DNA from: Liolophura sinensis
Lineage: Eukaryota; Mollusca; Polyplacophora; Chitonida; Chitonidae
NCBI RefSeq assembly: GCF_032854445.1
Contig: NC_088305.1
Coordinates: forward strand, 5,087,606-5,151,605
DNA: 64,000 nt
Direction of reading: 5' to 3'
Shown: positions 24,501 through 62,200 of the stretch, one piece after another
Layout of the letters: every line of letters starts with the position of its first letter
Numbering within the stretch: position 1 is the stretch's first letter
Translations under genes and position numbers: made by a program
The notes under the pieces: model-generated
What the model saw: the letters and a program-made list of their open reading frames with translations, nothing else
What the model was told of the DNA's origin: nothing
Database searches by the model: none

Positions 24501-27500
24501 CAATATGCTGCACTAGTGTGCTAACCAGCAGAGCCACAGAAGTCCCCTGTTCACCTACATGTACGCACACGAGGCTGTAATTATGTAGGCTGAAATTATA
24601 TGACTATGTCCTTGTTATTCCAAAACTGTGAAGAACATCATGTGTACTGGTATAAGTGTAGCCTATATGTATTAAGGGTTGATAAAGTATAAAATTAGCA
24701 AGAGCAGAGACATTCTGCACAGAGTTGATGTCGTCTTGCACTTAAACCCATGTTAAGTGAATGGCCCTTGGTAAAATGTAGGGCGTGAACAATTTGCGTC
24801 GACAAATCGAGGGACCGACTGGGTTGTCTGATAGAGCTGCCTGTTGCAGCTAAAATAAAAGGAAATGTGATGTTTGGATATGTTGTCATGGTTAATTTGT
24901 CTTTAAAATGACTTTCTTCTTAACTATGTTAAGCTTTGAAAATGAGATTCATCAGGGAACAGCAACAGTTTGCGTGTGTGTCTCATTTGTTTTTGTTCAT
25001 TCATTTTCAGGGCATTACAGAAACTGAAATGTCTGACATTATAATAAAATCTGATTCTCTTTTCCATGTATGTCCAATTTTCAGAGCAGTACAGAAAGTG
25101 AAATGTCTATTATAGTTTTGAGGTAGTGAACTCTCGTTTTCATATCTGTCCATTTTCAGTGCCGTATCGAAACTCGGTTTTGACTCGTCTATTACAGAAC
25201 GCTCTTGGGGGTAACAGTAAGACAATTATGGTATGAATAAGCTTGCGTACTTTTCAGGTCCCAGGATCATGAAACGATCTTGTTATACACTTAAGTCAAA
25301 ATCCCAAATCACTGTAAAATTGTTATTTCTTATGTAACAATGTCAAAATATGTCTTGACAACGTAAATTCTGGGTAAGCTATTGCAAAACAGATTTCAGT
25401 TAAAGTAACGTTTAAGAAAATACCATTTTTGATTGTGGTTTAAAGACTTGTGCCCACTTCCATGAAGTCCTCATGGCTAAGAGCACATAACTACCTTGGT
25501 AGCGTAATGCCTACGGTGCTGGTTGCCATGGTAGATACATGCTCGTAATGTTAAGTAGGGCTTTGTGCAAGTGGGCACTGAACTGTATCTTAAAGTTGCT
25601 TTTCTGTGTCTTGCCATTTTATCATCCATGACCAAGATCGTTTCAGATCAACTGACAAAAAGTGCCGTGACAAGGACTAATCATTCTTGTCTGTGTGTCA
25701 CGCTGTGGCTTCTGTTTAAGAACTGCTCCAAATATTGTGCAATGCTGAAGTTCCAAAAGCAGCTGAATCGGTCCATTGCATATTTAATCATTTATTTCCT
25801 GTATTCTGATTAATACTTTCTTCAGTAACTCATTCATGTCTTGTGTCTCACAGATCAAGTTCTAAAAGCAGTTTAATTCGCGGACGAGTTTTGAATAGTT
25901 AGGAGTGAAGCGCAAGTTGTCTGAATTATCTTACATGTTTTATTTATTTTGTGGAAAATTGGCATCTTGAGTATGTTGTACTTTTTATCTGACCCCTTGT
26001 TAAGGATTCTCCTGTCTTCTCAGATTGCTGCCTTAAGTCCGGCTGATATTAACTATGAGGAGACTCTGTCCACTCTGAGGTTTGGTGAGTACTCAGTAGA
26101 AGTTGTCAAAATTGTCCTGAAGTTTTGCAAGTACTTAACAAGTATTACCTAAAGTGTCCTAAGATTTGGTGAGTACTCAGCAAGTATTGTCCTGAGGTTT
26201 GGTGAGCACTCAGCAAATGTGGTCAGAAGTGTCTTGAGGTTTGGTGAGTACTCAGCAAATGTGGCCAAAAGTGTCTTGAGGTTTGGTGAGTATTCAGCAA
26301 ATGTGGCCAAAAGTTTCTTGAGGTTTGGTGAGTATTCAGCAAATGTTGTCATAACTTTCTGGAGGTTTGGTGAGTAATCTGATGTTGCCACAATTGTCCT
26401 GATGTTTGGTGAGTACTCAGCAAATGTTGCCAAAATTCTCCCGAGGTTTCGTGAATACTGAACAAATGTTGCCAAAATTGTCCTGAGGTTTGGTGAGTGC
26501 TTGGCAAATGTTTGCTAAATTGCCTTGAAATATAACATAGGTGATATTATCTGATGGAGTAAACAGAAAAGAAAGGCATCATGTCCAGATAAGTCATTAA
26601 TCCATGTGCTGATGTTTGATGAATTCTGTCGACTTCGTGGATATTTTTGACAAATTCCTTGCTGTGTGACACTCGCAGGACACCATGAAGTGCAAATGAG
26701 TATAAAATGAACAGAAAAATGCTTTATATCTAAATTCATCTTTCTTTATATATAAAGGACACATATGGTATTATGACCGGGCCTGTAAGAATCATTACGA
26801 GTGTCTGCATGACAGCTATGCACACGTATGCTACAAATACCTCATCACTTTTGAGTGATTAGTTTTGCAGCAATAGATATCAGCTTCCATGCACATCAGT
26901 GCAGATAAAAATATCTCCTGTAGTTTGAGTTTATTCCGCCGTGAGTTGTGAGGAGACTATTTCCATACCATAGCTGCCATTTTGGCTAATAAAATTGCCT
27001 AAAATTTTGGAAAAATGGTCAAAAGGCAGATTGAATTGATTAAAAATCAGATGTGGTGACTGCAGCCTATACGTGTATCTCCACTAATTACGATGAAAAC
27101 AGCCATAGAGAAATTTCTGTCTGTTTGTGACTGCAAATGGTCAGCATCATGGCACTTTTATTGATCAGTATGGGCGTACTTTGTGTGTGTATAATTTTGT
27201 AGCTTTGGGAAATCTCTCTACCGTTCTGATACTGTTGTCTCCTAACAGCCGACAGGGCTAAGGCCATAAAGACAACGGCCGTGGTGAATGAAAGTCCAAC
27301 AGACAAGCTGATACGGGAACTCAAGGAGGAAAACGCACGGCTGCTGAACATGCTCAAGTCAGGGGGCGGGGCTGCGATCATGAACGACCAATCACAGGGA
27401 GGCTACACTAAAGAAGGTATGTGCCCTAATTCCCTTAACCTTTTTCCATACAAAAAAGCAACTTTCAGTGCAATTTATGAAGATTTTTAGTTTGATATTG

Positions 27501-30500
27501 GAGACAAAACTACATTGGTTTCAGGGCTTCATAAAAAGTCTAATTTTATGCTTATGAATGCAGCACATGAGATACAGCGTGTTCTGTTGACGTTCGACTG
27601 GTTGAATTTGCCAAATTGCGCTGAGGAACCTCAGAGGTTTCTTGTAGAACCCAAGGACTCTCTTATAGAACACCTGGAGTGTGTTGTGTAACCTGCGGGT
27701 TGTCCTGTAGAACTCCAGGGCGGTTGTATGGAACCTCAGGGCTGTCCTATAGAATTTCAAGGCTGTCCTATAGAACCCCACGGCTGTCCTATAGAACACC
27801 AGAGTTGGGGTTGTTCTGTAGGACTCTGGGGTTGCCCTATAGAACTCCAGGGATGTCCTTTAGAATGCCAGGGTTGTCCTATAGAATGCCAAGGCTTCCT
27901 ATAGAACTTCAGGACTATCCTATAGAACCCCAAGGCTGGCCTTTAAAACTCTACGGCTGTCCTATAGAACATAGTTGGGGTTCTGTAGAACTCCAGGGTT
28001 GTCCTATAGAAATGCACGGCTGTCCTATAGAAATGCACGGCTGTCCTATAGAATGCCAGGGTTGTCCTACAGAATGCCAGGGTTGTCCTATAGGACGCCA
28101 GGGTTGATCTGTAGAACTCCAGGGTTGTCCTATAGATTTCCAACGCTGTCCTTTAGAATTTTAGGGCTCTCATATAGAACCCGGGCTGCCCTATAGAAGC
28201 ATGTGACAGTCCTAAAGAATTGCAAACCTGTCCTATACAGGCCATGAAATTTGGATTGTTGAGGTAAGTGGAAAATCTAGTTTTAAGCTTGAATGACTGA
28301 TCGTTCGGTTTCGCCACAACATGAAAACAGTCCAGTCGTTCACACAAATTGGTTACGTGAACATGTGTGTCTACACTTATTTACAGTACTTCCCAGCAGA
28401 TTTTTTCATTTTAATTACAGTAACTTCAGCAAAGCCTATTAGTTTGCATATGAAGTTGGTTGTATTGCAGCACAGTCCGCCATCATGCATGCCCAACGGA
28501 ATCCCCAGATAGCACAATGGCTACATGTGGTGAGGGCTACAGCATGAACAGTGATCAGCATAGATCAGGGTGGATCAGAAAGCCATTATAAAACATATTT
28601 GTCATACACCTTGAGCTTCACATGGCTTTGAAGGCCAGACCAGCATGTGTTATATTGATGAGTAGTTTGATTTTTGTTTGATGTTTAGTAAGTACATGCA
28701 TTGTCCTATACAATGTGCTTGGCCACAGGAGGGTTCTTTCAGAGTTGAAAGGCACAGCGGGTGTGTCTGGCTGTGCTGAAATAGAATTTCAGGCTGTCCT
28801 ATAGAACCCCAAGTCTGTTCTTTAGAACTTCAGGGCTGTCCGATAGAACCCCAAGTCTGTTCTATAGAACTCCAGGGCTGTCCTATAGAACCCCAAGTCT
28901 GTTCTATAGAACTTCAGGGCTGTCCTATAGAATTTCAGGGCTGTTCTATAGAACTTCAGGACTGTCCTATAGAACCCCAAGTCTGTTCTATAGAACTTCA
29001 GGGCTGTCCTATAGAACCCCAAGTCTGTTCTATAGAACTTCAGGGCTGTCCTATAGAACCCCAAGGCTGGCCTTTAGAACTCTACGGCTGTCCTATAGAA
29101 CCCCAAGTCTGTTCTGTAGAACTTCAGGGCTGTCCTATAGAATTTCAGGGCTGTTCTATAGAACTTCAGGGCTGTCCTATAGAACCTCAAGTCTGTTCTA
29201 TAGAACTTCAGGGCTGTCCTGTAGAACCCCCAAGTCTGTTCTATAGAACTTCAGGGCTGTTCTGTAGAACCCCAAAGTCTGTTCTGTAGAACTTCAGGGC
29301 TGTCCTATAGAATTTCAGGGCTGTTCTATAGAACTTCAGGGCTGTCCTATAAAACTTCAAGTCTGGCCTATAAAATTTCAGAGCTGTCCTTTAGAACTCC
29401 AGGCCTGTCATATAGAATTTAAGGGCTGTCGTATAGAACTCTGCGGTTGTCTTGGAGAGGCAATAGAACTTTAGGCCTGTCCTATAGAACTCCAGGCCTG
29501 TCCTATAGAACTTCAGGGCTGTCCTATAGAACTCCAGGCCTGTTGTACAGAATTTAAGGGCTGTCGTATAGAACTCTGCAGTTGTCTTGGAGAGGCAATA
29601 GAACTTTAGGGCTGTCCTACAGAGCCCCAGGACTGTAGACCCGTAGCCAGTTTTATAGAACTGTGAAAGGGCTTTGAATAAGACTGCACTTTGTCTCACT
29701 GTTAATGTGCTCTTTACATGTGATTTATATGGTATTTTGTCACAGAGGTTGAGGAGATGAAACGAACACTGGAAGAAGAGATGAGAAAAAGTCAACAGGA
29801 AGTGGAAGAGATGAAGAAAACATGGCAACAGAGGCTGGCAGAGGCAGAAGCTGATACTCTGGTAAGTTGGCCGTGGGCCACCAGCCACACAAGTATGCCC
29901 CAGAACTGTCTTAAAGGAATTGGCCGTGGGCCACCAGCCAGACAAATACGCCCCAGAATTGTCTTAATGGAATTGGCCATGGACCACCAGCAAGACTTTT
30001 TTATCTGTGCCTTTTTTATCTGAGTGCTGCTTCACTGAGATGCTTTACTGAAGGCAAGTAAGGCGCTCCACCATTATACTGATACCAGTCATTGCACTAC
30101 CCACTTCATGCTGAATGCCAAGCGAGGAAGTTCCAACTTCCTCTTTTAAGGTCTTAAGTGTGACTCGACCCAGGATTGACCCTGGATCTACCGCTCAAAT
30201 ACATGTACCAGTGTGTGGATAGAAGTACAGTAGGATAGTGGAGAAATATTGGATATGGCTAAAATTTTCTGATTCAGAGCTTTGTTTTGTGTGCAGTCAC
30301 TGGCATTCAGACATTAATTAAATGATATACCAGTATTCTTTTTGATTGAAGAAAGACATAATAGCACTTTAAATATGAAAACTGTGGTAAATGATGTTAA
30401 ATTTCACTCCCAAAATAGCAGTTTTAGAGGCAGATAAATGTCATGAACACATTACTTGTGATTCTGAAACTTACATTTTACCAGTAGGATTTCATCTTCC

Positions 30501-36500: not shown

Positions 36501-39500
36501 AAATTTTCCTGATAACAAAAAGAAAAACATTAATTACTGCATATCTATATTGATAGTGTTCCTGTTTAAAAGAAAGGCAGGCTAAAGCAATCCAAAACAA
36601 ACACATAATCTGTTTGTCCGTCTGTTCATCTGCCATTCTGTTTGTTTGTCAGTCTTTTATTACATCTACATGTATATATCTGTTTGTCCGTCTGTTCATC
36701 TGTCATTCTGTTTGTTTGTCAGTCATTCATCACATCTACATGTGTAAATCTGTTTGTCTGTCTGTTCATCTATCATTCTGTTTGTCCATCTGTTCATCTG
36801 TCTTTCTTTTTGTATGTCAGTCATTCATCACATCTACATGTATATATCTGTTTGTCTGTTCATCTGTCAGCTACAGCTACATGTATAATTCTGTCCATCT
36901 GTTCATCTGTCATTCTGTTTGTTTGTCAGTCATTCATCACATCTACATGTATAAATCTGTTTGTCTGTCTGTGTATCTGTCTTTCCTGTTTGTTTGTCAG
37001 TCATTCATCACATCTACATGTATAAATCTGGTTGTCTGTCTGTGTATCTGTCTTTCCTGTTTGTTTGTCAGTCATTCATCACATCTACATGTATAAATCT
37101 GGTTGTCTGTCTGTGTATCTGTCTTTCCTGTTTGTTTGTCAGTCATTCATCACATCTACATGTATAAATCTGGTTGTCTGTCTGTTTATCTGTCCTTCCA
37201 GCTGCTTGTCTTTTAATTATTTCTGATTCTATCTGTATGTCACAGGAGAAGGATCCTTTCTGGGAGCCGGCTGACGCAGAGATCCTCATTGGAACGGTTC
37301 ACCTGTACCTCCAGTCCCTGGCTTACCTCATAGAGCTGGAGGATAACCTGGTCATCTCTGACTACAAGGGCAACGAGAAAGGTGAGTATAAAAGAGGTAT
37401 AGAACTGTTCATGTCCATGTACTGCCAGTCCCTGGCTTAGCTCATAGAACTGGAAAATAACCTGGGGATCTCTGACTACAAAGTCAACGAGAAAGATGGG
37501 TATAGCAGAGGTCCTGATACAGCTGAAAGATAACCTGACCATCTCTGACTTCAAGGGCAACAGGAAAGATAGGTATAGCAGAGGCACAGAACTGCTTACG
37601 TCCTGATACAGCTGAAAGATAACCTGGCCATCTTTGACTACAGGGGCAACGAGAAAGGTGTGTATAGCAGAGGTGTGGAATTGCTCATGCCCAGATAGAG
37701 CTGGAAGATAACCTGGTATCTCTGACGACAAGGGCTGTGAGAAGGGTGGGTATAACAGGTATGGAACTGCTCACCTCAAGGGAGACAACTCCTTTCTGAT
37801 ATATGTTACATGAGCCATATGAAAGGCGTGTATAGGAGAGGTATGGAACTGCTCACCTCAAGGGAGACAACTCCTTTCTGATATATGTTACATGGGCAAT
37901 ATGAAAGGCGTGTATAGCACAGGTGTAGAACTGCTCATGCAGAGATAGAGCTGGAAGATAACCTGGTATCTCTGACGACAAGGGCCGCGAGAAGGGCGGG
38001 TATAACAGGTATAGAACTGCTCACATCAAGGGAGACAACTTCTTTCTGATATATGTTACATGAGCCATATGAAAGGCGTGTATAGCAGAGGTGTAGAACT
38101 GCTCATGCAGAGATAGAGCTGGAAGATAACCTCGCATCTCTGACTACAAAGGCTGAGAGAAGGGTGGGCATAACAGGTATAGAATTGCTGATATCAAGGG
38201 AGACAACTTCTTTCTTAAATGTGTTACATGAACAATATGAAAGGTGTGTGGGAGAGGTATAGAACTGCTCATGCAGAGATAGAGCAGGAAGATAACCTGG
38301 TATCTCTGACTACAAGGGCCGCGAGAAGGGTGGGTATAACAGGTATAGAACTGCTCACTTCAAGGGAGACAACTCCTTTCGGATATATGTTACATGAGCA
38401 ATATGAAAGGTGTGTGTAGGAGAGGTATGGAACTGCTTATGCAGAGATAGAGCTGACCGATAACCTGGTATCTCTGACTACAAAGGCTGCGAGAAGGGTG
38501 GGTATAACAGGTATAGAACTGCTTACATCAAGGGAGACAACTCCTTTCTTAAATGTGTTACATGAGCAGTATGACAGGTGTGTATATCAGAGGTATAAAA
38601 CTGTCCATCATGCCATCCCTAGGGTAAAGAAAGACAAATTGTGCCAATTCATTGTCTGTTTCAAGAGAAACTGGAAGCGTGGGTGGAAGAGGTGTAGAAC
38701 TGCATAGCATGCAGTTGCCAAAACTAAGGGAGAACACTCCTGTCAAATGTCAGTTGCATAACTGGTAAGGAAATTGTTGTAGTCAAGGGCTAAGAAAAAA
38801 AAAATAATTAAGGAAATGGGCCGTTGGAGATGTGATTTCTCCTTTGTTAAAGAACAGCAGATGAATAAGTATGTACAAGTATGGATGTTTTTGCATGTTT
38901 CCAGGCCGCCTCATGGTAGCTGCAATTCCGTGCACCCCAAAATGGCAAGAGATTAAAGATGACTTTGTGGAGGATCCCAAAGAACTGGTATTGTGTTTAC
39001 AGCTCAGCTAGCTATTTGCTACAGTAAAGTTAGGATAAATGTAAGGTTTTCTGAAACAAAATTATATGATGTAGCAATGTCACTTCATTAAAACGCAAAT
39101 AATGTGTGAGTATACAAATGATGAGATAGTTGCATGTGTTCATCCACTAATGATGCAGGTGTTGTCAGAGAAAACAGATAACGTTATGCCACTAACACAA
39201 AGGAATTGTGAAATGATCTTGATTGTTCGCTACATTTGACTCGTACATAAGGATGCTCTTTGTAAATGGAAATGGAAATTGTACAGGTCAGTAATGTTTT
39301 CTTGCCTTAATTTTTTATACAGCTATACATCATTAATAATACAGCTGCTGACAACAATAAGATGTGATGACAACAATAAGATGTGATGACAACAATAACA
39401 TGTGATGACAACAATAACATGTGATGACAACAATAAGATGTGATAAAATACATCTTTTTTGAGACAGTTAAATTGCACATCTTTAGAAACTGAAAGCTCA

Positions 39501-45500: not shown

Positions 45501-48500
45501 CATACAGGAAGAGAGCGGAGAGGGCAGAAACCAAACTGGTAAGATCAGTATGTTACACAAAACCTGGTAAAATCTGTATGTCACACAAAACTGGCAAAGT
45601 CTGTATGTCAGACAAAGCTGGTAAGGTCTGTATGTCACACAAAACTGGTAAAATCTGTATGTCACACAAAACTGGTAAGGTCTGTATGTCACACAAAGCT
45701 GGTAAATCTGTATGTCACACAAAACTGGTAAGGTCTGTATGTTACACAAAGCTGGTAAAATGTGTATGTCACACAAAGCTGGTAAAATGTGTATGTCACA
45801 CAAAACTGGTAAGGTCTGTATGTCACACAAAACTGGTAAGGTCTGTATGTCAGACAAAGCTGGTAAAATCTGTATGTCACACAAAACTGGTAAAATCTGT
45901 ATGTCACACAAAACTGGCAAGGTCTGTATGTCACACAAAGCTGGTAAAATCTGTATGTCACACAAAACTGGTAAGGTCTGTATGTCACACAAAGCTGGTA
46001 AAATCTGTATGTCACACAAAACTGTTAAGGTCTGTATGTAACACAAAGCTGGTAAAATGTGTATGTCACACAAAACTGGTAAAATGTGTATGTCACACAA
46101 AACTAGTAAGGTCTGTATGTCACACAAAACTGGTAAGGTCTGTAGTCACACAAAGCTGGTAAAATCTGTATGTTACACAAAACTGGTATAATCTGTATGT
46201 CACACAAAACTGGTAAGGTCTGTATGTCACACAAAGCGTTAAGGTCTGTATGTCACACAAAACTGGTAAAATCTGTGTGTCACACAAAACTGGTACAGTC
46301 TGTATGTCACACAAAACTGGTAAAATCTGTTTGTTACACAAAGCTGGTAAGGTCTGCATGTCACACAAAGCTGGTAAAATCTGCATGTCACACAAAACTG
46401 GTAAATGTGTACGTCACACAAAACTGGTAAAATCTGCATGTCACACAAAACTGGTAAGGTCTGTATGTCACACAAAGCTGGTAAAATCTGTGTGTCACAC
46501 AAAACTGGTAAAATCTGTATATTCACACAAAACTGGTAAGGTCTGTATGTCACACAAAACTGGTAAATCTGCATGTCACACAAAACTGGTAAAATGTGTA
46601 CGTCACACAAAATTGGTAAGGTCTGTATGTCACACAAAGCTGGTAAAATCTGTGTGTCACACAAAACTGGTAAAATCTGTATATTCACTCAAAACTGGTA
46701 AGGTCTGTATGTCACACAAAGCTGGTATAATATGTATGTCACACAAAACTGGTAAAATGTGTACGTCACACAAAATTGGTAAGGTCTGTATGTCACACAA
46801 AATTGGTAAGGTCTGTATGTCACACAAAGCTGGTAAAATCTGTGTGTCACACAAAACTGGTAAAATCTGTATATTCACACAAAACTGGTAAGGCCTGTAT
46901 GTCACACAAAGCTGGTATAATGTGTATGTCACACAAAACTGGTAAGGCCTGTATGTCACACAAAGCTGGTATAATATGTATGTCACACAAAACTGGTAAA
47001 ATCTGTGTGTCACACAAAACTGGTAAAATCTGTATATTCACTCAAAAACTGGTAAGGTCTGTATGTCACACAAAGCTGGTATAATCTGTATGTTACACAA
47101 AGCTGGTAAGGTCTGCATGTCACACAAAGCTGGTAAAATCTGCATGTCACACAAAACTGGTAAAATCTGTGTGTCACACAAAACTGGTACAGTCTGTATG
47201 TCACACAAAACTGGTAAAATCTGTATGTTACACAAAGCTGGTAAGGTCTGCATGTCACACAAAGCTGGTAAAATCTGCATGTCACACAAAACTTGTAAAA
47301 TGTGTACGTCACACAAAACTGGTAAGGTCTGTATGTCACACAAAGCTGGTATAATATGTATGTCACACAAAACTGGTAGGGGCCTCTGTGGCTGGCTCAG
47401 TCGGTTAAAGTGCTAGCGCAGCGTAATGACCCAGGAGTCTCTCACCAATGCGGTCACTGTGAGTTCAAGTCCAGCTCATGCTGGCGGCCATACGTGAGAA
47501 GGTCTGCCAGCAACCTGCGGATGGTCGTGGGTTTCCCCCGGGCTCTGCCCGGTTTTCACCCACCATAATGCTGGCCGCCGTCGTATAAGTGAAATATTCT
47601 TGAGTACGGCGTAAAACACCAATCAAAAAAAAAAAAAAAATCAAAACTGGTAAAATGTGTATGTCACACAAAACTGGTAAGGCCTGTATGTATGGTGCAA
47701 AAAAAGATTAATTCCTTGAGGTACAAGTTTCTTCACCGTTGGCAAATTCTTCAGTTACTTGCCCAAGGTTGGTGGTTTATGACGCACGTAATGGTACATG
47801 GATATGTAGCAAATTTAAGCCTGGCTCTCTTCTGTTTTCAGTCCAAGTTTCAGAAGATGATTGAGGAAGCTCAGGACAAAAATGAGACTACACTACAGGT
47901 GAGCTTACAATGTGTGACACTTTTGTAACACAAAACACAACACCACACTACAGGTGAGCTTACAGTGTGTGACACTTTTGTAACACAAAACACAACACCA
48001 TACTACAGGTGAGTTTGCATTCTGTGACACCTTTGCAACACAAAACACAACACCATACTACAGGTGAGTTTGCATTCTGTGACACTTTTGTAACACAAAA
48101 CACAACACCATACTACAGGTGAGTTTGCAGTGTGTGGCACTTTTGTAACACAAAACACAACACCATACTACAGGTGAGATCGCGCTCTGTGACACTTTTG
48201 TAACATAAAACACAACACCATACTACAGGTGAGTTTGCATTCTGTGACACTTTTGTAACACAAAACACAACACCATACTACAGGTGAGATCGCATTCTGT
48301 GACACTTTTGTAACACAAAACACAACACCACATTTCAGGTGAGCTTGCAGTGTGTGGCACTTTTTTAACACAACACCACACTACAGGTGAGTTTGCATTC
48401 TGTGACACTTGATAACTCAAAAAACAATACCACACTACAGCTGAGCTCGCATTCTGCTGCACTTTTGTTACACAAAACACAAGACTGCAGGAGCTCAGAC

Positions 48501-49428
48501 AAATTCTGTGGAATGTTGTAACACAAAACACAAGACTGCATGTGAGTTCAGACAAATTCTGTGGAATGTTGTAACACAAAACACAAGACTGCAGGAGCTC
48601 AGACAAATTCTGTGGAATGTTGTAACACAAAACACAAGACTGCATGTGAGTTCAGACAAATTCTGTGGAATGTTGTAACACAAAACACAAGACTGCAGGA
48701 GCTCAGACAAATTCTGTGGAATGTTGTAACACAAAACACAAGACTGCATGTGAGTTCAGACAAATTTTGTGGCATTTTTTAACACAAAACACAAGACTTC
48801 ATGTGAGTTCATACAAATTTTGTGGCACTTTGTAACACATACATGTAACACAAGACTCACTACGGGTGAGCTCAAACAGATTCTGTGGTACATGTACTTT
48901 GTAACATGAAACCATAACATACTGAAGGTGAGCTCAAATTCTGTTGCACTTTGTATCACAAAACACAAAACTGCTTGTTATCTCAGACAGACTATTGTGT
49001 GACATTTTGCTGCATAAATGCAAGGCCACATTATAGGTGAGTTCAAATTTTGTGGTACTTTGTAACACAAAACACAACATTTCGTCAAAGTTTCACAGAG
49101 ATCACCACAATAATAGTTAATAGTTATATATAATATAATATATTATAATATATAAATTTAATAATTAAAGATATCTGCAAAATCTTGCAAATTCATCTAA
49201 ATTATAATCTGATTTTTTAAATTTTCTAAAAATTGGAATATGTGCTTAATATTGGCCTTTTGGCATAATTGTTCTTGTTTTTTTTTTTGTTACCAGGTGT
49301 CAAAGTTACTGGAAATTCTGTCCAGTAGTCACAGGTTTAGAGCTGTGGCAGATGTGGTCGTAGGAGTGGAGGCCAAGAAGCAAGAAAGCCTTGGACAGAA
49401 AACTTCACAGGCCTGTAGTATCCAGTAA
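12464..49428 (+). CDS. KIF28: Kinesin-3 family motor KIF28 / KLP-6-like, 27 exons, complete
   Basis: The gene encodes a plus-end microtubule motor ATPase of 991 aa, cytoplasmic or ciliary. C. elegans KLP-6 acts in cilia, and human KIF28P is annotated as a pseudogene. The exon coordinates listed separately join in frame throughout. The motor domain (about residues 1-365) begins [10 protein letters not shown], with P-loop GQTGSGKS (106-113), switch I NATSSRAH (223-230) and switch II DLAGSE (259-264). The neck reads LSTLRFADRAKAI and [16 protein letters not shown], followed by a Glu/Lys coiled coil (exons 12-13) and an FHA-like domain (exons 13-16, [14 protein letters not shown]). A KIF28-type tail with a C2-like segment (exons 21-23) and a C-terminal coiled coil follow. 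[19 protein letters not shown] and [16 protein letters not shown] point to KIF28 rather than KIF1. An in-frame ATG at 12431 would add 11 residues. Intron 1 is U12 type. Introns 10, 19, 25 and 26 start with donor-copying arrays. Confidence 0.93.
12506..14565 (+). other. KIF28: U12-type AT-AC intron (KIF28 intron 1)
   Basis: The donor ATATCCTTT at 12506-12514 is a perfect match to the U12 AT-AC consensus. The intron ends TTTTTGTAC at 14565 with no usable AG. A branch-site-like CCTTGAC (14549-14555) has its A at 14554, 11 bases from the end, the short spacing typical of U12 introns. The junction is RPF-NSRE, which matches kinesin-3 proteins. Confidence 0.93.
12845..12992 (+). mobile_element. SINE family A 3' fragment (KIF28 intron 1)
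   Basis: It reads AACCTGCGGATGGTCATGAG, GCCATAATGCTGGCC and GTATAAGTGAAATATGCTTG, then an AATAAATAAATC tail. The head is lost. Confidence 0.75.
14566..14760 (+). CDS. KIF28: KIF28 exon 2
   Basis: 65 codons, phase 0/0, [17 protein letters not shown] to [13 protein letters not shown]. Includes [10 protein letters not shown], the kinesin-3 FDxSYWS motif. AC acceptor (U12); donor GTTTGT. Confidence 0.93.
15289..15421 (+). CDS. KIF28: KIF28 exon 3 (P-loop)
   Basis: Encodes [18 protein letters not shown] and then the nucleotide-binding loop [10 protein letters not shown]. Acceptor TTTCAG, donor GTAAGT; ends phase 1. Confidence 0.95.
15500..15678 (+). mobile_element. SINE family A, diverged (KIF28 intron 3)
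   Basis: Contains CTCTCACCAATG, GGTTCAAGTTTAGCC (B box), TGTACATGGGAAGGTCTGCC and TTGTATAAGTGAAATATTCT in family order. Part of the centre is deleted. Confidence 0.7.
16455..16800 (+). mobile_element. SINE family B (KIF28 intron 3)
   Basis: TTGGCCCGGTG, GTGACTGGGCAGGGTGTCAT, TTTGGCGGCATGGACTCGCC and GACTCCTCGTCGTCACATGA lie in family order. It ends AAACCCCAAGCATACATACA, 29 bases before exon 4, so it may supply part of that exon's upstream splicing context. Confidence 0.8.
16829..16911 (+). CDS. KIF28: KIF28 exon 4
   Basis: Encodes [20 protein letters not shown] and AGKDEEYQ. Acceptor TATCAG, donor GTGAGA; phase 1 to 0. A second donor-like CAGGTAAGG lies inside the exon at about 16889-16897. 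Confidence 0.93.
17005..17092 (+). mobile_element. SINE family A fragment (KIF28 intron 4)
   Basis: CTCTCCAGCTGTACGTGGGA joins by a deletion to the 3' block and a CAATCAAATAAAATA tail. Confidence 0.6.
17985..18185 (+). mobile_element. Possible third SINE-like repeat (KIF28 intron 4)
   Basis: A B-box-like GGTTCAAATCC at about 18016 and a 3' end GTGTGAAACACCAGAACAGT resemble a tRNA-derived element outside families A and B. Only one clear copy is visible, so this is tentative. Confidence 0.4.
18425..18595 (+). pseudogene. Coding-like 57-codon segment with splice-site borders in KIF28 intron 4
   Basis: It lies between ACGTAG and GTAGCC and is an open phase-0 segment with protein-like composition, for example [17 protein letters not shown] and [20 protein letters not shown] second donor GTGAGA sits at 18561. 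Its length is a multiple of three, and its phase equals that of the exon 4/5 junction. KIF28 homology runs straight from exon 4 to exon 5, so it is not a normal motor exon. I do not recognise the protein. It could be an alternative exon, a captured exon or a gene fragment. Confidence 0.4.
18712..19310. repeat. KIF28: 17-bp minisatellite with TACATGTA palindrome (KIF28 intron 4)
   Basis: The unit TACACTTGCCATACATG repeats about 35 times with variants (TGGCC, TGCATGTA). The 17-base length is not a multiple of three, yet both strands stay open in several frames, producing long artefactual ORFs. Confidence 0.95.
19657..19785 (+). mobile_element. SINE family A 3' fragment (KIF28 intron 4)
   Basis: Reads GTTTCCTCCCGCCATAATGC, CGTCGTATAAGTCTAAGTAT and TTGAGTACGGCATAAAAACA followed by a CAAAT-rich tail. 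Confidence 0.75.
20705..20844. mobile_element. MITE-like element, 140 bp, 18-bp inverted termini (KIF28 intron 4)
   Basis: GGGCTCAGTTTCACAAAG (20705-20722) and CTTTGTGAAACTGGGCCC (20827-20844) are reverse complements with one mismatch. The interior has no coding potential. A similar element lies at 49719-49855. Confidence 0.7.
21042..21156 (+). CDS. KIF28: KIF28 exon 5
   Basis: Encodes [18 protein letters not shown] and [14 protein letters not shown], the kinesin EIYNE-VRDLL and LxVRExP region. Acceptor TGTGTAG, donor GTAAGT; phase 0 to 1. Confidence 0.95.
21314..21360. repeat. TTTA microsatellite (KIF28 intron 5)
   Basis: Short TTATTTATTTATTTATTTAT run. Confidence 0.7.
21506..21555. repeat. 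AT dinucleotide microsatellite (KIF28 intron 5)
   Basis: An uninterrupted TA/AT run of about 48 bases. Confidence 0.95.
22264..22375 (+). CDS. KIF28: KIF28 exon 6 (switch I, first half)
   Basis: Encodes [19 protein letters not shown] and [11 protein letters not shown]. Ends in phase 2, splitting a Ser codon of the switch I motif. Acceptor TTACAG, donor GTACCG. Confidence 0.94.
22697..22804 (+). CDS. KIF28: KIF28 exon 7 (switch I end, switch II start)
   Basis: Completes [17 protein letters not shown] and runs to NLVDLAGS, with the last Ser split. Acceptor TTCCAG, donor GTAGGT. Confidence 0.95.
23098..23320. mobile_element. Diverged MITE-like repeat (KIF28 intron 7), relative of 25264-25649
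   Basis: Shares AAATCACT, AAATTGT, CTTGACAAC and GGGTAAG blocks in the same order with the element in intron 9. The right end is GATCGCTTCATGATCTTGG, like that element's terminus. The left end is poorly preserved. Confidence 0.5.
23365..23516 (+). mobile_element. SINE family A 3' fragment (KIF28 intron 7)
   Basis: Reads GTCAGCAACCTGCGGATAAT, CCCACAATAATGCTGGCC and TATAAGTGAGATATTCTTGA with an AAATAAATAAATAC tail. Confidence 0.8.
23966..24099 (+). CDS. KIF28: KIF28 exon 8 (switch II end)
   Basis: Completes [20 protein letters not shown], then [18 protein letters not shown] and GGKKKVI. Acceptor GTGCAG, donor GTATGT; ends phase 1. Confidence 0.95.
24277..24546 (-). mobile_element. SINE family A, full length, inverted (KIF28 intron 8)
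   Basis: Runs from the tail complement TTATTTATTTGTTTGACTG through the 3' block, B box (GAGTTCAAGTCC on minus) and head complement ending CCACAGAAGTCCCC. Confidence 0.85.
25160..25230 (+). CDS. KIF28: KIF28 exon 9
   Basis: Encodes [18 protein letters not shown] and NSKTIM, the kinesin microtubule-binding PYRxSxLTxLLxxxLGGNSKT segment. Acceptor TTTCAG, donor GTATGA; phase 1 to 0. Confidence 0.95.
25264..25649. mobile_element. MITE-like element with inverted ends (KIF28 intron 9)
   Basis: GATCATGAAACGATCTTG at 25265-25282 pairs with CAAGATCGTTTCAGATC at 25633-25649. A second, smaller element (25450-25578) lies inside it. Confidence 0.65.
25450..25578. mobile_element. Nested MITE-like element, 129 bp (KIF28 intron 9)
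   Basis: GTGCCCACTT (25450-25459) and AAGTGGGCAC (25569-25578) are perfect 10-bp inverted ends. It sits inside the larger element. Confidence 0.55.
26024..26084 (+). CDS. KIF28: KIF28 exon 10
   Basis: Encodes [20 protein letters not shown]. Acceptor CTCAG, donor GTGAGT; phase 0 to 1. The exon end CTGAGGTTTG and its donor are the seed of the tandem array that follows. Confidence 0.95.
26066..26505 (+). repeat. KIF28: Donor-anchored minisatellite, 42-bp unit (exon 10 / intron 10)
   Basis: Units repeat the sequence CTTGAGGTTTGGTGAGTACT, i.e. the end of exon 10 plus its GTGAGT donor plus intron start. The two clearest neighbours are 26236 and 26278, 42 bases apart. About 9-10 units follow, with several intact TTTG-GTGAGT decoy donors. 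Confidence 0.93.
27249..27416 (+). CDS. KIF28: KIF28 exon 11 (neck)
   Basis: Encodes [16 protein letters not shown] and [18 protein letters not shown], the end of the motor and neck helix. Acceptor AACAG, donor GTATGT; phase 1 to 1. Confidence 0.95.
27421..27560 (+). repeat. Dispersed repeat shared with 52225-52380
   Basis: AACTTTCAGTGCAATTTAT, then ACAAAACTACA and TTTCAGGGCTTCA occur in the same order and spacing in both places. The family is unrecognised. Confidence 0.65.
27600..28235. repeat. KIF28: 21-bp minisatellite, block 1 (KIF28 intron 11)
   Basis: Units of the type CAGGGCTGTCCTATAGAACTC repeat, more degenerate than block 2. 21 bases is seven codons, so frames stay open on both strands. 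Confidence 0.9.
28785..29640. repeat. KIF28: 21-bp minisatellite, block 2 (KIF28 intron 11)
   Basis: Highly regular CAGGGCTGTCCTATAGAACTT units, with a CCCCAAGTCTGTTCTATAGAA variant that alternates with it as a 42-bp higher-order form. Minus-strand frames read a seven-residue FYRTALK repeat with no sign of being a gene. Confidence 0.93.
29746..29861 (+). CDS. KIF28: KIF28 exon 12 (coiled coil)
   Basis: Encodes [20 protein letters not shown] and [16 protein letters not shown], a charged heptad-like helix. Acceptor TCACAG, donor GTAAGT; phase 1 to 0. Confidence 0.94.
29862..29995 (+). repeat. KIF28: Short tandem repeat starting at the exon 12 donor
   Basis: Three units of TTGGCCGTGGGCCACCAGCC type, about 54-60 bases apart, begin within six bases of the donor. 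Unlike the other donor arrays the unit does not copy the GT donor itself. Confidence 0.8.
30060..30200 (-). mobile_element. SINE family B fragment, inverted (KIF28 intron 12)
   Basis: TGAATGCCAAGCGAGGAAG, AAGGTCTTAAGTGTGACTCG and CAGGATTGACCCTGGATCTA are complements of the family B head and body. Confidence 0.6.
30857..31087 (+). mobile_element. SINE family A, near full length (KIF28 intron 12)
   Basis: Carries the head GCCTCTGTGGCCTTGTGGTT, B box GAGTTCAAGTCCAGC, and the 3' block ending TACGGCGTTAAATTAACTCC. It stops about 27 bases before exon 13. Confidence 0.8.
31115..31229 (+). CDS. KIF28: KIF28 exon 13
   Basis: Encodes [20 protein letters not shown] and [19 protein letters not shown], the linker into the FHA domain (L-NxDP motif of kinesin-3). 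Acceptor TTCAG, donor GTAAGG; ends phase 1. Confidence 0.95.
31328..31535 (+). repeat. Direct duplication of about 110 bp (KIF28 intron 13)
   Basis: Two copies start TTATTATAGAGTA (31337 and about 31459) and share GGTAACAACTG, CGCCTGAA and AGCCCAAACAAA blocks. Confidence 0.75.
31690..31770 (-). mobile_element. SINE family A 3' stub, inverted (KIF28 intron 13)
   Basis: A long T run followed by GATTAGTGTTTTACGCCGTA and CAAGAATATTTCACTTATAC: the family tail and 3' block only. Confidence 0.7.
32443..32506 (+). CDS. KIF28: KIF28 exon 14 (FHA, first strand)
   Basis: Encodes [20 protein letters not shown]. The usual FHA Gly-Arg pair reads Gly-Asn here. Acceptor ATCAG, donor GTAGTA; phase 1 to 2. 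Confidence 0.9.
32968..33200 (-). mobile_element. SINE-like repeat, inverted, family unassigned (KIF28 intron 14)
   Basis: GTTGGTGTTTTATGCC at the left resembles the family A 3' end, and GGGTTTGAACTCATGACCTT at the right is a B-box complement. The middle does not match family A closely. Confidence 0.5.
33222..33553 (-). mobile_element. SINE family B, inverted (KIF28 intron 14)
   Basis: TTGTACTTAACAAGTTTCCA through GGGCCCACCAGTCCTGTTTT to GCTCTGTCCATTAGGCTACT is the reverse complement of the whole family B element. Confidence 0.8.
33649..33777 (+). CDS. KIF28: KIF28 exon 15 (FHA core)
   Basis: Encodes [20 protein letters not shown] and [19 protein letters not shown], with the FHA His (NHATL) and VNG turn. 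Acceptor TTTAG, donor GTCTGT (weak); phase 2 to 2. Confidence 0.93.
34603..34775 (+). CDS. KIF28: KIF28 exon 16 (FHA end and linker)
   Basis: Encodes [20 protein letters not shown] (FHA FGxNHxYxFxxP motif) and [17 protein letters not shown]. Acceptor TTTCAG, donor GTACGT; phase 2 to 1. Confidence 0.95.
35296..35466 (-). mobile_element. SINE family A 5' part, inverted (KIF28 intron 16)
   Basis: GCTGGCAAACCTTCCCACGT and GATATTGGTGAGAGGCTCCT are complements of the centre and head. It ends GGCCATGGAGACCCC. Confidence 0.75.
35474..35502. repeat. Poly-C tract (KIF28 intron 16)
   Basis: Near-continuous C run (CCCCCATC then 17 or so C), a possible sequencing or assembly weak point. Confidence 0.8.
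35567..35715 (+). CDS. KIF28: KIF28 exon 17
   Basis: Encodes [20 protein letters not shown] and [16 protein letters not shown], a KIF28/KIF1-type post-FHA segment. Acceptor CACAG, donor GTAAGT; phase 1 to 0. Confidence 0.95.
36083..36275 (+). mobile_element. SINE family A 3' fragment with a second 3' stub (KIF28 intron 17)
   Basis: The first copy ends in an AAATAAATAAATAAATAA tail; then AATGCTGGCTGCTATTGTAT begins a second truncated copy ending ACACTAATCAAATAAA. Confidence 0.75.
36341..36478 (+). CDS. KIF28: KIF28 exon 18
   Basis: Encodes [20 protein letters not shown] and [18 protein letters not shown]. 46 codons, phase 0/0; acceptor GCCAG, donor GTAAGT. Confidence 0.95.
36600..37205. repeat. 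KIF28: 71-bp minisatellite, CTGT-rich (KIF28 intron 18)
   Basis: The unit contains TCAGTCATTCATCACATCTA and runs of CTGTTTGTCTGTCTGT. Clear starts lie at about 37021, 37092 and 37163. It runs to within about 40 bases of exon 19 and may supply its pyrimidine tract. Confidence 0.92.
37246..37381 (+). CDS. KIF28: KIF28 exon 19
   Basis: Encodes [20 protein letters not shown] and [19 protein letters not shown]. Acceptor TCACAG, donor GTGAGT; phase 0 to 1. Its 3' half is the source of the array downstream. Confidence 0.95.
37382..38720 (+). repeat. KIF28: Donor-anchored array of exon 19 partial copies (KIF28 intron 19)
   Basis: The first copy (about 37420-37495) repeats CCAGTCCCTGGCTTA, CTCATAGAACTGGA, AACCTGG and ATCTCTGACTACAAAG from exon 19, then the intron start TATAGCAGAGG. 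Later units (roughly 100-190 bases apart) keep GAGCTGGAAGATAACCTGG and TATCTCTGAC plus GGGAGACAACTCCTTTCTGA. They are pseudo-exon copies, most with degraded donors and early stops. Confidence 0.9.
38905..38987 (+). CDS. KIF28: KIF28 exon 20
   Basis: Encodes [20 protein letters not shown] and FVEDPKEL. Acceptor TTCCAG, donor GTATTG (weak); phase 1 to 0. Confidence 0.92.
39335..39446 (+). repeat. 19-bp tandem repeat (KIF28 intron 20)
   Basis: GATGTGATGACAACAATAA repeats about five times. Confidence 0.9.
39537..39608 (+). CDS. KIF28: KIF28 exon 21
   Basis: Encodes [20 protein letters not shown] and NISS, the start of a C2-like strand (LLKIxxAKGLP). 24 codons, phase 0/0; acceptor TTTCAG, donor GTGAGT. 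Confidence 0.95.
39722..39853 (+). mobile_element. SINE family A 3' fragment (KIF28 intron 21)
   Basis: GGCAGCAACCTGCAGATGGT, CCCACCATAATGCTGGCCGC, GTATAAGTGAAATATTCCTG and an AAATAAATAAATG tail. Confidence 0.85.
40329..40451 (+). CDS. KIF28: KIF28 exon 22 (C2-like)
   Basis: Encodes [20 protein letters not shown] and [14 protein letters not shown]. 41 codons, phase 0/0; acceptor TTGTAG, donor GTAAGA. Confidence 0.95.
41163..41330 (+). CDS. KIF28: KIF28 exon 23 (C2-like end and linker)
   Basis: Encodes [20 protein letters not shown] and [18 protein letters not shown]. 56 codons, phase 0/0; acceptor CTGCAG, donor GTAGGT. Confidence 0.95.
41711..42003 (+). repeat. 73-bp tandem repeat, four copies (KIF28 intron 23)
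   Basis: TATTCTTCATATCTTTCCAA recurs at 41711, 41784, 41857 and about 41930, nearly identical, so recently amplified. Confidence 0.95.
42289..42480 (-). mobile_element. SINE family A, diverged, inverted (KIF28 intron 23)
   Basis: GTGTTTTACGCTGTACTCAA, CATTATTGTGGGAGGAAAC and CATCCGCAGGCTGC, then GACCTTCCCACGTAG. Confidence 0.7.
42638..43085 (+). repeat. 37-bp minisatellite (KIF28 intron 23)
   Basis: GTGCTGAGGCCACACCAGTT plus AGAATTCTTGTTTTACT repeats about 12 times (e.g. 42681 and 42718). Confidence 0.95.
43438..43555 (+). mobile_element. SINE family B, internally deleted (KIF28 intron 23)
   Basis: Head-like AGGTCCAGGGTCAATCCTAG joins to TAAGACTTTAAAAGAGG and AAATTGTTAAGTACGATGTT, with the body missing. 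Confidence 0.6.
43711..43743 (+). CDS. KIF28: KIF28 exon 24 (33-nt exon)
   Basis: Encodes [11 protein letters not shown], 11 codons, phase 0/0. Acceptor TTTCAG, donor GTAAGG. Small and low-complexity, supported by frame and splice sites rather than by homology. Confidence 0.7.
44378..44712 (+). repeat. 25-bp minisatellite (KIF28 intron 24)
   Basis: GGAAGTTTCATCCATGATTA plus TACTT repeats about 13 times, with GATCATA alternating with GATTATA. Confidence 0.95.
44830..44943 (-). mobile_element. SINE family A 3' fragment, inverted (KIF28 intron 24)
   Basis: TTTATTTGATTGGAGTTTTA, GTCGTACTCACTTTCATATT and a CATTATGGCAGGAGGAAACC block. Confidence 0.7.
45205..45448 (+). mobile_element. SINE family A, near full length, just upstream of exon 25
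   Basis: GAGGCCTCCAGGGTGGAGG head variant, B box GAGGTCAAGTCCAG, and the 3' block CTTGAGTACGGCATAAAACA with an AAATAAATGAAATAAA tail. The tail ends about 24 bases before exon 25. Confidence 0.85.
45473..45538 (+). CDS. KIF28: KIF28 exon 25 (C-terminal coiled coil)
   Basis: Encodes [20 protein letters not shown] and KL, phase 0 to 0. Four AG dinucleotides crowd the acceptor (45463-45472). Only AG at 45471-45472 keeps frame with exon 24, and the frame is fixed by exon 26. Donor GTAAGA; the exon end AAACTG seeds the array that follows. Confidence 0.85.
45527..47376 (+). repeat. KIF28: Donor-anchored minisatellite, 27-bp unit (exon 25 / intron 25)
   Basis: The unit AAACTGGTAAGGTCTGTATG plus TCACACA copies the last six bases of exon 25 and its GTAAG donor. 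Roughly 65-70 units run for 1.85 kb, a large share still reading CTG-GTAAGG. The first spacing is 28 bases, later ones mostly 27 with occasional 26, so downstream donors are mostly out of frame with the real one. Long ORFs on both strands here are artefacts of the 27-base period. Confidence 0.97.
47379..47640 (+). mobile_element. SINE family A, full length, inserted into the 27-bp array
   Basis: GGGGCCTCTGTGGC head, TTCAAGTCCAGCTCATGCTG B box region, canonical 3' block and an A-rich tail. Array sequence ending AAAACTGGTA lies on the left and starts again with AAAACTGGTA on the right, a likely 10-bp target duplication. Confidence 0.9.
47842..47898 (+). CDS. KIF28: KIF28 exon 26
   Basis: Encodes [19 protein letters not shown], 19 codons, phase 0/0. 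Acceptor TTTCAG, donor GTGAGC. Its end ACTACACTACAG seeds the next array. Confidence 0.94.
47887..49080 (+). repeat. KIF28: Donor-anchored minisatellite, 55-bp unit (exon 26 / intron 26)
   Basis: CTACAGGTGAG, the exon 26 end plus donor, recurs at 47893, 47948, 48003, 48058 and 48113, exactly 55 bases apart, then on to about 48430. Beyond that, units carry CTGCAGGAGCTCAGAC or CTGCATGTGAGTTCAGAC variants and the array decays toward 49080. Confidence 0.97.
49297..49428 (+). CDS. KIF28: KIF28 exon 27 (terminal)
   Basis: Encodes [20 protein letters not shown] and ends KTSQACSIQ with TAA at 49426-49428. Acceptor ACCAG after a T-rich tract. 43 codons plus stop. Confidence 0.94.
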   Translation: MSKLLEILSSSHRFRAVADVVVGVEAKKQESLGQKTSQACSIQ

Positions 49429-54669: not shown

Positions 54670-54960
54670 GAGAGCAGGCATTGGCTGAGTGGTTAGGGCC
54701 ACTTTCCTTTCAGTCGGTAGAACACAAAAGGTGTGGGTTCAAACCAGGCATTGGTCAGAGAATGAAGTCCAACGTTCATTCAAGACCACTTGTTCAACCG
54801 ATAAGATGTACATATATTTGTGTCATTGTATATATGTGGGAAAGCTTGTCATTACGTTGCCAAAGGTCGGTGGCTCACTCCAGGTTTCATCTACCTATGA
54901 AGCTGACTGCCACAGTATAAGTGAACAATTTTTGAATACAGATATGGCTTTAAGTAAAAA
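54670..54960 (+). mobile_element. Possible tRNA-derived SINE, unassigned
   Basis: TGGCTGAGTGGTTAGGGCC looks like an A box, and GTGTGGGTTCAAACC like a B box 50 bases on. The 3' part (GTATAAGTGAACAATTTTTG) is weakly like family A. It would be a chimeric or old copy. Confidence 0.5.
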
Positions 54961-55484: not shown

Positions 55485-55815
55485 ATACATGGTAGAACGT
55501 CAGCCTTAGACTCGAGGAAACCTGGGATCAAAGCGAGTGAAGTCATACCACAGACTAGGCGCTCAGCACTGAGAGGTTAAGAGCATGGAAACAGGACTGG
55601 TTGGCCAGGTGTCAGTATAATGTGACTGGGTGGGGACATCTTTATGATCTGATTGGGTGGGGTGTCGTGTCTGGTCTCTTCAGCACGGTACTTTTGTGGC
55701 AGCAGCACTTTGGCGGCATGGACTCACAAGACAATACATACCTAACGAATCCTCGTTATATGACTGAAAAATTGTTAAGTACGACGTAAAGCCCCAAGCT
55801 TACATACATACATAT
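55485..55815 (+). mobile_element. SINE family B
   Basis: GAGGTTAAGAGCATGGAAAC, GTCAGTATAATGTGACTGGG, TTTGGCGGCATGGACTCAC and TTGTTAAGTACGACGTAAAG in family order, with a TACATA-repeat tail. A short internal duplication of GTGACTGGGTGGG is present. Confidence 0.8.
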
Positions 55816-56158
55816 ACATATATTAGAAGCTCTACTCTGTATGTTCATGCATGACCATATATTATGAACAACAATTACTGTTTGATGAACAGCACTTTTA
55901 TGACCAGTTATACAAGATATCTACAGTACATGAGCACTTATCACAGGCCATGTCTCAAAAATTAAGCCTTTTATATCACCACATTGATTCCTCATTTCAC
56001 AGTTAATAAAAATTCTCCTTTTTGACCAAATTGTAGATAAACTTGATTTCAGTTTGATGACTAAAACATTTAGACAGCATATCTGTAAGCCCTATCACTG
56101 CATCACCCTTCATTCTCCTCCAAACACCCATCTAAAACTCCAACTCTCTCAGGACTGA

Positions 56159-56206
56159 TTACGACTTTCTGAGTTTAGACAGCAGGATTTCATTCTTTCG
56201 ACACTC
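56159..56206 (-). CDS. CCDC93: CCDC93 terminal exon i
   Basis: Encodes [15 protein letters not shown] then TAA (56161-56159). Acceptor TTTCAG. Too short to show as a standalone ORF; identified from family C-terminal similarity and phase 0 joining. Confidence 0.93.
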   Translation of the reverse strand, partial: ECRKNEILLSKLRKS

Positions 56207-59200: not shown

Positions 59201-62200
59201 CAGCGATGCTACAGCAGTGATGCTACAGTAATGGTGCTACAGCAGTGATGCTACAGTAATGATGCTACAGTAATTATGCTACAGCAGTGATGAAGTAACT
59301 GAAGTAGCATTATCACACAATTCATAGGCTGTATTCATAGCCTATTGCTTTGGTTATGACTGTGACTCGTTAGCAGTCAGCGATGAAACCCACAGACATA
59401 GCACAGTATACACGTACCATCTTTGCTGACTAAGCTCAGCGCTCCTTACCTTGGTGGTACAGTGCTCAAATTTCCTTATCTTTGTTGTACAGCACTCAGA
59501 ATTCCATGCCTTAGTGGTACAGTATATACTTTGGCTGTATGGCGCTCAGAGTTTCTTACACTGGTTGCAGTGCTTAGAGTTCCTTATATTGGTAGTGTAG
59601 TGCTCAAACTTCATTATCTTTGTTGTACAGCACCCAGAGTTCCTTACCTTTGTTGTATAGTACTGTAAGTTCCTTATCTTGGTTGCACAGTGCTCAAATT
59701 TCCGTATCTTGGTTGTACAGCACTCAAACTTCCTTATCTTGGTTGTACAGTGCTCACAGTTTCTTATCTTGGTTGTAAAGTGCTCACAGTTTCTTATCTT
59801 GGTTGTACAGTGCTCAGAGTTCCTATCTTGGCTGTACAATGCTCAGAGTTCCTTACCTTGGTTGTACAGTGCTTAACGTTTCTTATCTTGGTTGTACAGT
59901 GCTCACAGTTTCTTATCTTGGTTGTACAGTGCTCACAGTTTCTTATCTTGGTTGTACAGTGCTCAGAGTTCCTATCTTAGCTGCACAATGCTCAGAGTTC
60001 CTTACCTTGGTTGTACAGTGCTTAACATTTCTTATCTTGGTTGTACAGTGCTCACAGTTTCTTATCTTGGTTGTACAGTGCTCACAGTTTCTTATCTTGG
60101 TTGTACAGTGCTCATTGTTCCCTACCTTGGTTGCACAGTGCTCAAAGTCCCTTACCTTGGTTGTACAGTGCTCAAAGTTCCCTCCCTTGGTTGCACAGTG
60201 CTCAAAGTTCCCTACCTTGGTTGTACAGTGCTCAGAGTTCCTTACCTTGGTTGTACAGTGCTCAAATTTGCCTACCTTGGTTGCAGAGTGCTCAAAGTCC
60301 CTTACCTTGGTTGTACAGCTCCACAAATCTTCCTGGTCTTGGTTGTACAGTGCTCACAGTTTCTTATCTTGGTTGTACAATGCTCAGAGTTCCTTACCTT
60401 GGTTGTACAGTGCTCAAAGTTCCTTACCTTGGTTGCAGAGTGCTTAAAGTCCCTTACCTTGGTTGTACAGCTCCACAAATCTTCTTTGGTACTGACTGAG
60501 CTCTGCACGTGATGGCACTTCGTCAATCTTTCTCTGAAGTCCTGCAATTTCTCTGTTCTTCCTCGCCTGTTGGCAAACCATACCCTTGAGCAGTTCCAAT
60601 TTTGGTGATGCATTGTGTTTTACAATTTACAACAAATTTTTTCACCTATAACGAGGGAAGAATTTTGCTTTCTCATTAGGGAGGGTAGCAGGGTGCCAAG
60701 GGAAATAATTTGACAGCAACAGTGAAAAATCTTATGATGTGTGGACATTATGAGATGTGAGAGCCTTTGTGCTCAAAAATGATTGAATTTATTTATTTGA
60801 TTGGTGCTTAATAAAACACCGAACTCAAGAATATTGCCCTTTATATACGATAGCGGCCAGAATTATGGTGGGAAGAAACTGGGCCTTGCCCGCAGGAAAC
60901 CCACGAACATTCGGTTGCTTGCAGACGTTCCCAATGACATTAAAGTCAAGAGATCATATAAAGGGCTTAAATCTCAAGCAGTGAGCATACACACATCTGC
61001 ATACTTTACGGGTCAACTCAAATCCTTTCATAGTCTGTCCCCCAGAAGTTAAATTATCAGTAAAAGAAAGTTAAAATATGAAGTAAGGTTCATCATACAG
61101 ACAACTGAAAACTATGCGTAAAAATAATTTCATTTATTTTTTAAATGCATGCAAATTTTTTAAAAGGATGGTGGGCTTGATGGTATCTAAGAACTCTGAT
61201 TCTTTCCTGATGTTCACCAGAAGGCAGGAATTTTTGGGAACATTACTTCATTAATCTTTCAAACATGGTTAAACGGAGCTATTCAAACATTCAGTGATTA
61301 GAGTTGGACAATCTTCCTGTGACGTCTCTGACGTCCATAAAGCCCACCTAAGAATTCAAATGCCTTTATCTTTTTTTTTACAAAAATCTAAAACAAATAA
61401 ATGAAAGGACATTTATGCATTTTTTAAAGTGGTCTATTTAGTGATGCCTACTTCAATATGTAGAGGTCTTTTCCTTATTTAATACCATTCACGATGACTC
61501 TTCGGTAATTCCCACATACCATACACCTGGGAATTATCTGAGTGAAGTAAAGAGAGAAAGGACAAGCTCACCAGTAGAAGTTTGATCTTGTGCAGTTTTT
61601 CTTTGTCTGCTTCAAATTGTTTCTCTATCATTTTTGCTCTTTCCTGGAAAATAAAAGCAGGACAAAATATGATTGTTGATTGACTGGGGTCACGTGCAGA
61701 AAGGATTTGTAAGTTTTAAGGTGACGGTAATTCACTAAGATCAGGATCATAGCTTTAGCTTACGATCAACACAAAACAGACGTAACTTACAATCAGAAAT
61801 TACAGTCGGGTAAACCATGTTGTAAATATTCACAATCACCACAAAATCACTCTTAAGTACAAATACCTGCCTCAGGTAGACTGTAAGTAAGTTTGTGCAA
61901 TTTAAGTGTGTCAAAAGCATGTATTGAGAATTGTTTCACATGTTGTTGTTGTTAGCTGCTGAATCATTATGATGCAGAACTCTTTTTAAAATGAAATAAA
62001 AAAAAATCACATATTGACTGGTACATTTTCCATTTATACAGACCACCATTATGTATGCGTCAGATCTGATGCACGATCACGATCATAATTCTGAAACATT
62101 AAATCCATTTGCAATTCCTTTGAACAAGTGACGTAACTTATTTTTACAAACTGATTTTAAAGTTAATTGTACGGTTTACAATCTATTGTAGCTACAACCT

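Follow-up and report, generated by a model that had tools for sequence, protein, structure and literature searches.

Mirage-like minisatellites across exon-intron junctions of a chiton genome

Why should introns of two unrelated genes open with a tandem array that repeats the end of the preceding exon together with its splice site? The question is raised by a window of 64,000 nucleotides from the chiton Liolophura sinensis (contig NC_088305.1, positions 5,087,606 to 5,151,605 of the forward strand; window coordinates below count from its first letter), in which four introns in a gene for a KIF28-type kinesin and one in CCDC93 carry a minisatellite that starts within the upstream exon and extends into the intron along the direction of transcription. 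Tandem Repeats Finder (TRF), reading of the sequence and a search for later copies anchored at each true donor agree on this arrangement, which an initial annotation of the window had described. The best reading is that these arrays match the mirages of amphioxus, now in a mollusc and at about one donor in 20. With a probability of roughly three in four, they are mirage-type minisatellites whose birth is blind to position and which are purged in exons and tolerated across junctions.

The units of the five window arrays hold the last 6 to ~78 nt of the exon plus the GT donor. Array 1 (26075..26512, plus strand) repeats a 42-bp unit that takes in the final ~10 nt of a kinesin exon delimited by eye only (~26024-26084), and its donor GT at 26085 is followed by 10 later copies at a spacing of mostly 42. 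Array 2 (37304..38603, plus strand) is compound: it begins ~78 nt ahead of the end of exon 37246-37381, and the donor at 37382 has 14 later copies, which hold less exon and are spaced by 114 and then 73-89, a TRF period of 168 also being reported. In array 3 (45533..47690, plus strand) the 27-bp unit includes the last ~6 nt of an exon whose end at 45538 was placed by eye only, and 66 later copies follow the donor at 45539, mostly 27 apart. Array 4 (47892..49060, plus strand, traced by TRF to 48839) repeats the last ~9 nt of exon 47842-47898 in a 55-bp unit; the 20 later copies of its donor at 47899 are spaced by 55 and then mostly 50-54, and the distal copies are decayed. Array 5 (59443..60470, minus strand) has a 30-bp unit with the last ~13 nt of CCDC93 exon 60458-60566, and its donor at 60457 is followed by 32 later copies, mostly 30 apart. 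TRF, sequence reading and copy search support every array, an exon match supports arrays 2 and 5, and a scan for codon and splice signals recovered three of the five exons (37246-37381, 47842-47898 and 60458-60566). The gene assignments come from the minus-strand exon, which matches human CCDC93 (8f2u, E 1.5e-12) as far as the final complete codon ahead of the junction, and from exon stretch 37246-37380, whose sole match is 7wrg (E 8.8e-7), which we take to be C. elegans KLP-6, of KIF28 type.

The unit lengths first proposed therefore need partial revision: 42, 27 and 30 bp stand, 55 bp stands with a drift to 50-54, and a steady unit of ~150 bp in array 2 does not. By eye the five units are mutually unrelated, which argues, as had been proposed, for independent events. 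One copy in array 5 is atypical (60290..60345, minus strand, donor at 60305; copy search and sequence) in that it holds ~27 nt of exon instead of the usual 13, and it probably records unequal exchange, or else template switching, that involved the exon-side unit. Array 3 encloses a stretch at ~47380-47642 that ends in an A-run and is presumably a short interspersed nuclear element (SINE)-like insert, with about two units beyond it; because array units flank this stretch on both sides, its insertion postdates array growth. The window as a whole gave 50 TRF rows, or ~20 distinct arrays by eye, among them a long 21-bp minisatellite in two blocks (27697-29636) within the kinesin gene, with no exon predicted inside it.

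Can the assembly be trusted at these sites? It was first published as Liolophura japonica with 632 scaffolds and 609,495,693 bases, from PacBio HiFi reads at 14x with a mean length of 8,347 bp and with a heterozygosity of 1.2%, according to its genome report (PMC11068029), and the species name has since been corrected to L. sinensis (PMC12441733); the genome analysed here comprises 632 contigs and 609,464,459 bases. Misassembly of the five arrays is unlikely because they measure ~0.4-2.2 kb, so that at this read length and depth spanning is expected, on average figures rather than at read level. A different caution concerns the count. The window was chosen for showing the pattern of arrays at donors, and for this reason its 5:0 ratio of donors to acceptors is not unbiased.

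The frequency was therefore taken from exon-level Pfam matches outside the window, picked by family and blind to arrays: 91 matches to dynein DHC_N2, 133 of the 136 to the kinesin motor (the other three lie in the window) and 81 of the 83 to the myosin head. These 305 matches with 380-500 nt of flank on each side make up 285,104 bases (loci L002-L171). They are not all clean single exons, as some overlap or cross a short intron, and the flanks cut long arrays, many of which reach the end of the sampled stretch. Weight matrices, not RNA, placed the splice sites, with 294 donors and 295 acceptors assigned; pairing them by reading frame gave 119 introns, 102 of them good, and this pairing was unused for the counts.

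Straddling arrays were called by TRF and inspection. An array straddles the donor in 14 of the 305 matches, or 4.6% of sampled donors (confidence interval (CI) 2.5-7.7%), namely at L003, L022, L028, L030, L042, L085, L101, L106, L118, L145, L146, L151, L155 and L167. The call was edited by hand in four places: L072, called straddling by the script, was dropped since its true donor is farther upstream, L101 was brought in, the first of two donors was taken at L106, and L029, which contains a second copy of the L028 exon, was not counted. The largest exon portion is seen at L155, where 115 nt of a 124-bp unit are exon and copies match each other at 97%. Acceptors are straddled in six of the 305 matches (2.0%, CI 0.7-4.3%), at L012, L017, L096, L103, L125 and L148; at L125, ~48 nt of exon plus the acceptor are repeated upstream of the true acceptor. 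Left out of this count were arrays that end 1-26 nt short (the second exon of L017, L135, L159, L020 and L002). The initial annotation had held that no acceptor is copied, and since acceptors carry arrays in the sample, a rule of always donors and never acceptors is not general here.

At L028/L029 (C11:27412483-27415330) much of a kinesin exon, donor included, recurs ~1.7 kb downstream amid shared 73-bp units, with 557 bp between both loci lying outside the sampled sequence. Exchange with the exon-side unit may explain this reappearance.

Where within the unit does the junction fall? Exon sequence makes up between 0.08 and 0.93 of the unit in the 14 sampled donor arrays, and these shares do not depart from uniform (Kolmogorov-Smirnov test, p=0.58; p=0.73 with the five window arrays), with L028 entered at its TRF value of 17/73, by eye nearer 50. 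A uniform junction position indicates that no fixed motif sets the breakpoints, and the spread is as expected for a duplicated stretch falling randomly across the junction. Moreover, none of the 81 arrays with a TRF score of at least 80 lies 90% or more inside an exon match, as expected if arrays within exons are purged. Short repeats at the breakpoints were also considered; the duplication ends at L042 look alike by eye, later copies blur the signal, and no claim is made from them.

These patterns are accommodated by a model of three steps. First, slippage or repair would tandemly duplicate a few tens of base pairs without regard to gene structure, and the duplicated stretch would sometimes span an exon-intron junction. 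Second, selection would remove arrays inside coding exons, the step whose outcome is the observed pattern, and a junction-straddling array would survive, the exon-side copy supplying the splice site and reading frame while the others remain intronic. Third, unequal exchange, of which traces are seen, would expand and turn over the array, leaving surplus splice sites to drift neutrally. Presumably the first donor is the one used, and the arrays are presumably polymorphic in length. Of the three options initially proposed, the best fit is tolerance of arrays in which the first donor is preserved.

Several results weigh against this model. Position-blind birth by itself yields no donor excess, and donor arrays outnumber acceptor arrays by 14:6 within the sample (p=0.12) and by 19:6 (p=0.015) once the pattern-selected window is added. 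In a first-copy test, which scored each position for whether its 14-mer is the leading copy in a tandem repeat, the rate at 292 donors was 4.24% versus 2.04% at 30-200 nt into the intron, a ratio of 2.08 with a bootstrap CI of 1.05-3.63 (L072 exon omitted). By a rougher calculation, which multiplies TRF edge density by the mean unit, 2.8 straddling arrays are expected on each side, against which 14 donor arrays give P of about 1e-6 and the six acceptor arrays, somewhat above expectation, P=0.06. Finally, one weak repeat does lie inside an exon, at L006 (21 bp x 2.2, score 62, below threshold). In our opinion the figure of 2.8 is an underestimate, since locus ends truncate arrays and weak arrays fall under the score threshold, and the first-copy test is the more trustworthy. 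Its mirror test at 295 acceptors gave 1.80% versus 2.48%, a ratio of 0.73 (CI 0.20-1.35), which is intron level. A profile of first copies on the donor side and last copies on the acceptor side declines into the exon; its 13 of 293 junctions are a different set from the 14 above, as they include L072 and L138 and miss L022, L101 and L106. A mild excess of donors over acceptors would follow if spare downstream donors are better tolerated than spare upstream acceptors.

An alternative hypothesis is that arrays are born at donors, through a process linked to the 5' splice site (R-loop, transcription-coupled repair or slippage at AGGT-like motifs) that seeds duplications at exon ends. The position of all five originally listed arrays, the donor ratio with its CI just above 1 and the 14 arrays against the crude expectation speak for it. 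However, acceptors are straddled too, the junction position in the unit points to no fixed breakpoint motif, and a test on words places the donor no higher than controls. For this test the donor word CAGGTAAGT was compared with control words TGAATGGAC and CAGATGAGT by genome-wide occurrence, with tandem loci hand-counted on contig C1. The donor word occurs 9,807 times and is paired in tandem at 13 C1 loci; the controls occur 4,854 and 4,770 times with 9 and 4 tandem loci on C1, or 13 loci for 9,624 words when pooled. Assuming an even spread of words over contigs, the donor word is thus not tandem more often than these two controls (8.4 versus 8.5 loci per 1000). Rows of tandem pairs per 1000 words number 37.5 for the donor word, within the range of three controls (46.1, 16.4 and 36.6). 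With the excess of donor words taken as true donors, a 3-fold enrichment predicts 26.6 loci on C1 against the 13 seen (P=0.003) and a 2-fold enrichment 19.9 (P=0.07). At C1:1413360-1415608 and C1:1291132-1292274 the donor word also recurs through 1-2 kb with spacings of mostly 82 and 84-96 bp, which correspond to array units larger than the pair search covers.

Strong targeting of exon-intron boundaries or AGGT motifs, as put forward in the initial annotation, is not favoured on these grounds: the exon sample supports it weakly and the word test not at all. The check for donor enrichment that had been suggested, run here on the sample, splits, with donors 2.08-fold over intron and 14 arrays against the crude 2.8 on one side and the donor-acceptor ratio and flat word test on the other. 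We consider donor-targeted birth unlikely; a roughly 2-fold bias towards donors may exist. Rather doubtful, in our estimate, is the broader statement that about one intron in 20 carries a tandem series of similar 5' splice sites, and that such series arise or persist at donors at about twice the rate seen elsewhere, with acceptors not so affected. If it were true, the cell would face up to dozens of similar donors in each of thousands of introns and have to choose the first, and the whole genome would bear the imprint of either mutation linked to the 5' splice site or a strict first-donor rule.

Could the repeated donors instead be functional, as selected decoys or as alternative donors that regulate splicing? 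The GT is kept in 200 of 238 later copies across 19 donor arrays, and some copies score equal to the first donor. On the other side, the CCDC93 array keeps it in only 13 of 32 copies, and conservation of the GT columns does not significantly exceed that of the other columns of the unit when each array is compared with its own consensus (0.935 versus 0.910, permutation p=0.17, 15 arrays). That the extra GTs are under selection had been considered because they looked better conserved than their flanks, a difference that did not persist once copies were compared with their own consensus. Unit lengths likewise show no frame preference, being a multiple of three in 7 of 19 units (p=0.81). The extra donors look neutral, and a regulatory role is very unlikely.

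A further question is whether the arrays are relics of intron birth, in which tandem duplication of an exon fragment carrying AG|GT turned the interval between two copies into an intron. In favour, the arrays include stretches of exon together with GT or AG signals, the same origin is proposed for amphioxus globin introns in PMC3087553, and the L118 unit has a donor and an acceptor-like TTTCCTAG, the start of the next exon not being located there. The age of the introns speaks against this view. Each intron was placed on the Pfam model by its codon and phase, and exact coincidence with a paralogue intron was required; 12 of the 20 array-bearing introns share codon and phase in this way, where chance with shifted positions gives 2.1 and at most 7 in 300 trials. 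These 12 introns therefore predate their arrays, and the absence from relatives that gain by tandem genomic duplication would entail is not seen for them. Intron gain is rejected for these 12, and the other eight are without an exact shared position. A looser match (within 1.3 residues, some hand-typed sites being a few nt off) gave 16 of 20 with a high chance level and was replaced by the exact count. As a general account, intron birth is highly improbable.

The frequency of the arrays matters beyond this window. If 14 donors and six acceptors per 305 matches, from three gene families that presumably represent the genome, are typical, the chiton has thousands of mirages. Each donor array would then be a natural contest among similar 5' splice sites at varying distance from one exon, and existing RNA-seq of the species, with accessions in PMC11068029, could thus measure how the spliceosome chooses among them. 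The arrays would also reveal how often tandem duplication hits genes and what part selection purges.

Two observations stand apart from the arrays. COX1 has seven matches on C99 at ~15.5-kb steps and one on C632, and the mitochondrial genome appears to have been assembled as a concatemer. At C8:37880506-37891931, eight matches to the molluscan haemocyanin end domain follow each other on a single strand.

How do the chiton arrays relate to known systems? A literature search over titles and abstract openings returned no report of boundary minisatellites in chitons or other molluscs, and the main texts of two chiton genome papers (PMC12005716, PMC7850002) contain neither "minisatellite" nor "tandem repeat" or "tandem". 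In human segmentally duplicated genes, PMC2812944 describes internal tandem repeats with ~30-bp units at exon-intron boundaries. These too are minisatellites at such boundaries, but they are associated with novel introns and with alternative splicing among recent paralogues, whereas the chiton arrays lie in conserved families and often in shared introns. Tandem genomic duplication as set out in PMC4974935 likewise duplicates a stretch that includes exon sequence; it creates an intron, whereas the chiton arrays enlarge an existing intron in at least 12 of 20 cases.

The closest counterpart is in amphioxus, where, in the accounts of PMC3087553 and PMC3902484, mirages are known from a handful of genes: Adh3, the globins BflGb6 and BflGb9, troponin C and PGBD5. 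For these, PMC3087553 gives units of 10-160 bp and reports that they evolve in concert, are unstable in length and leave splicing regular. The chiton arrays were read in an assembly with one haplotype; at least 12 of the 20 chiton introns are shared with a paralogue and show no sign of intron gain, unlike the origin proposed for the amphioxus globin introns. The anatomy matches, as the initial annotation had suspected for another phylum. In both animals tandem units cross the exon-intron junction, and many, not all, copies keep AG/GT; both 5' and 3' boundaries are affected, in the chiton through the acceptors of the sample and not the five arrays of the window; and unit lengths overlap, at 10-160 bp there and 27-140 bp here. 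The chiton adds to this a mollusc host and a count over 305 exon matches in place of single genes.

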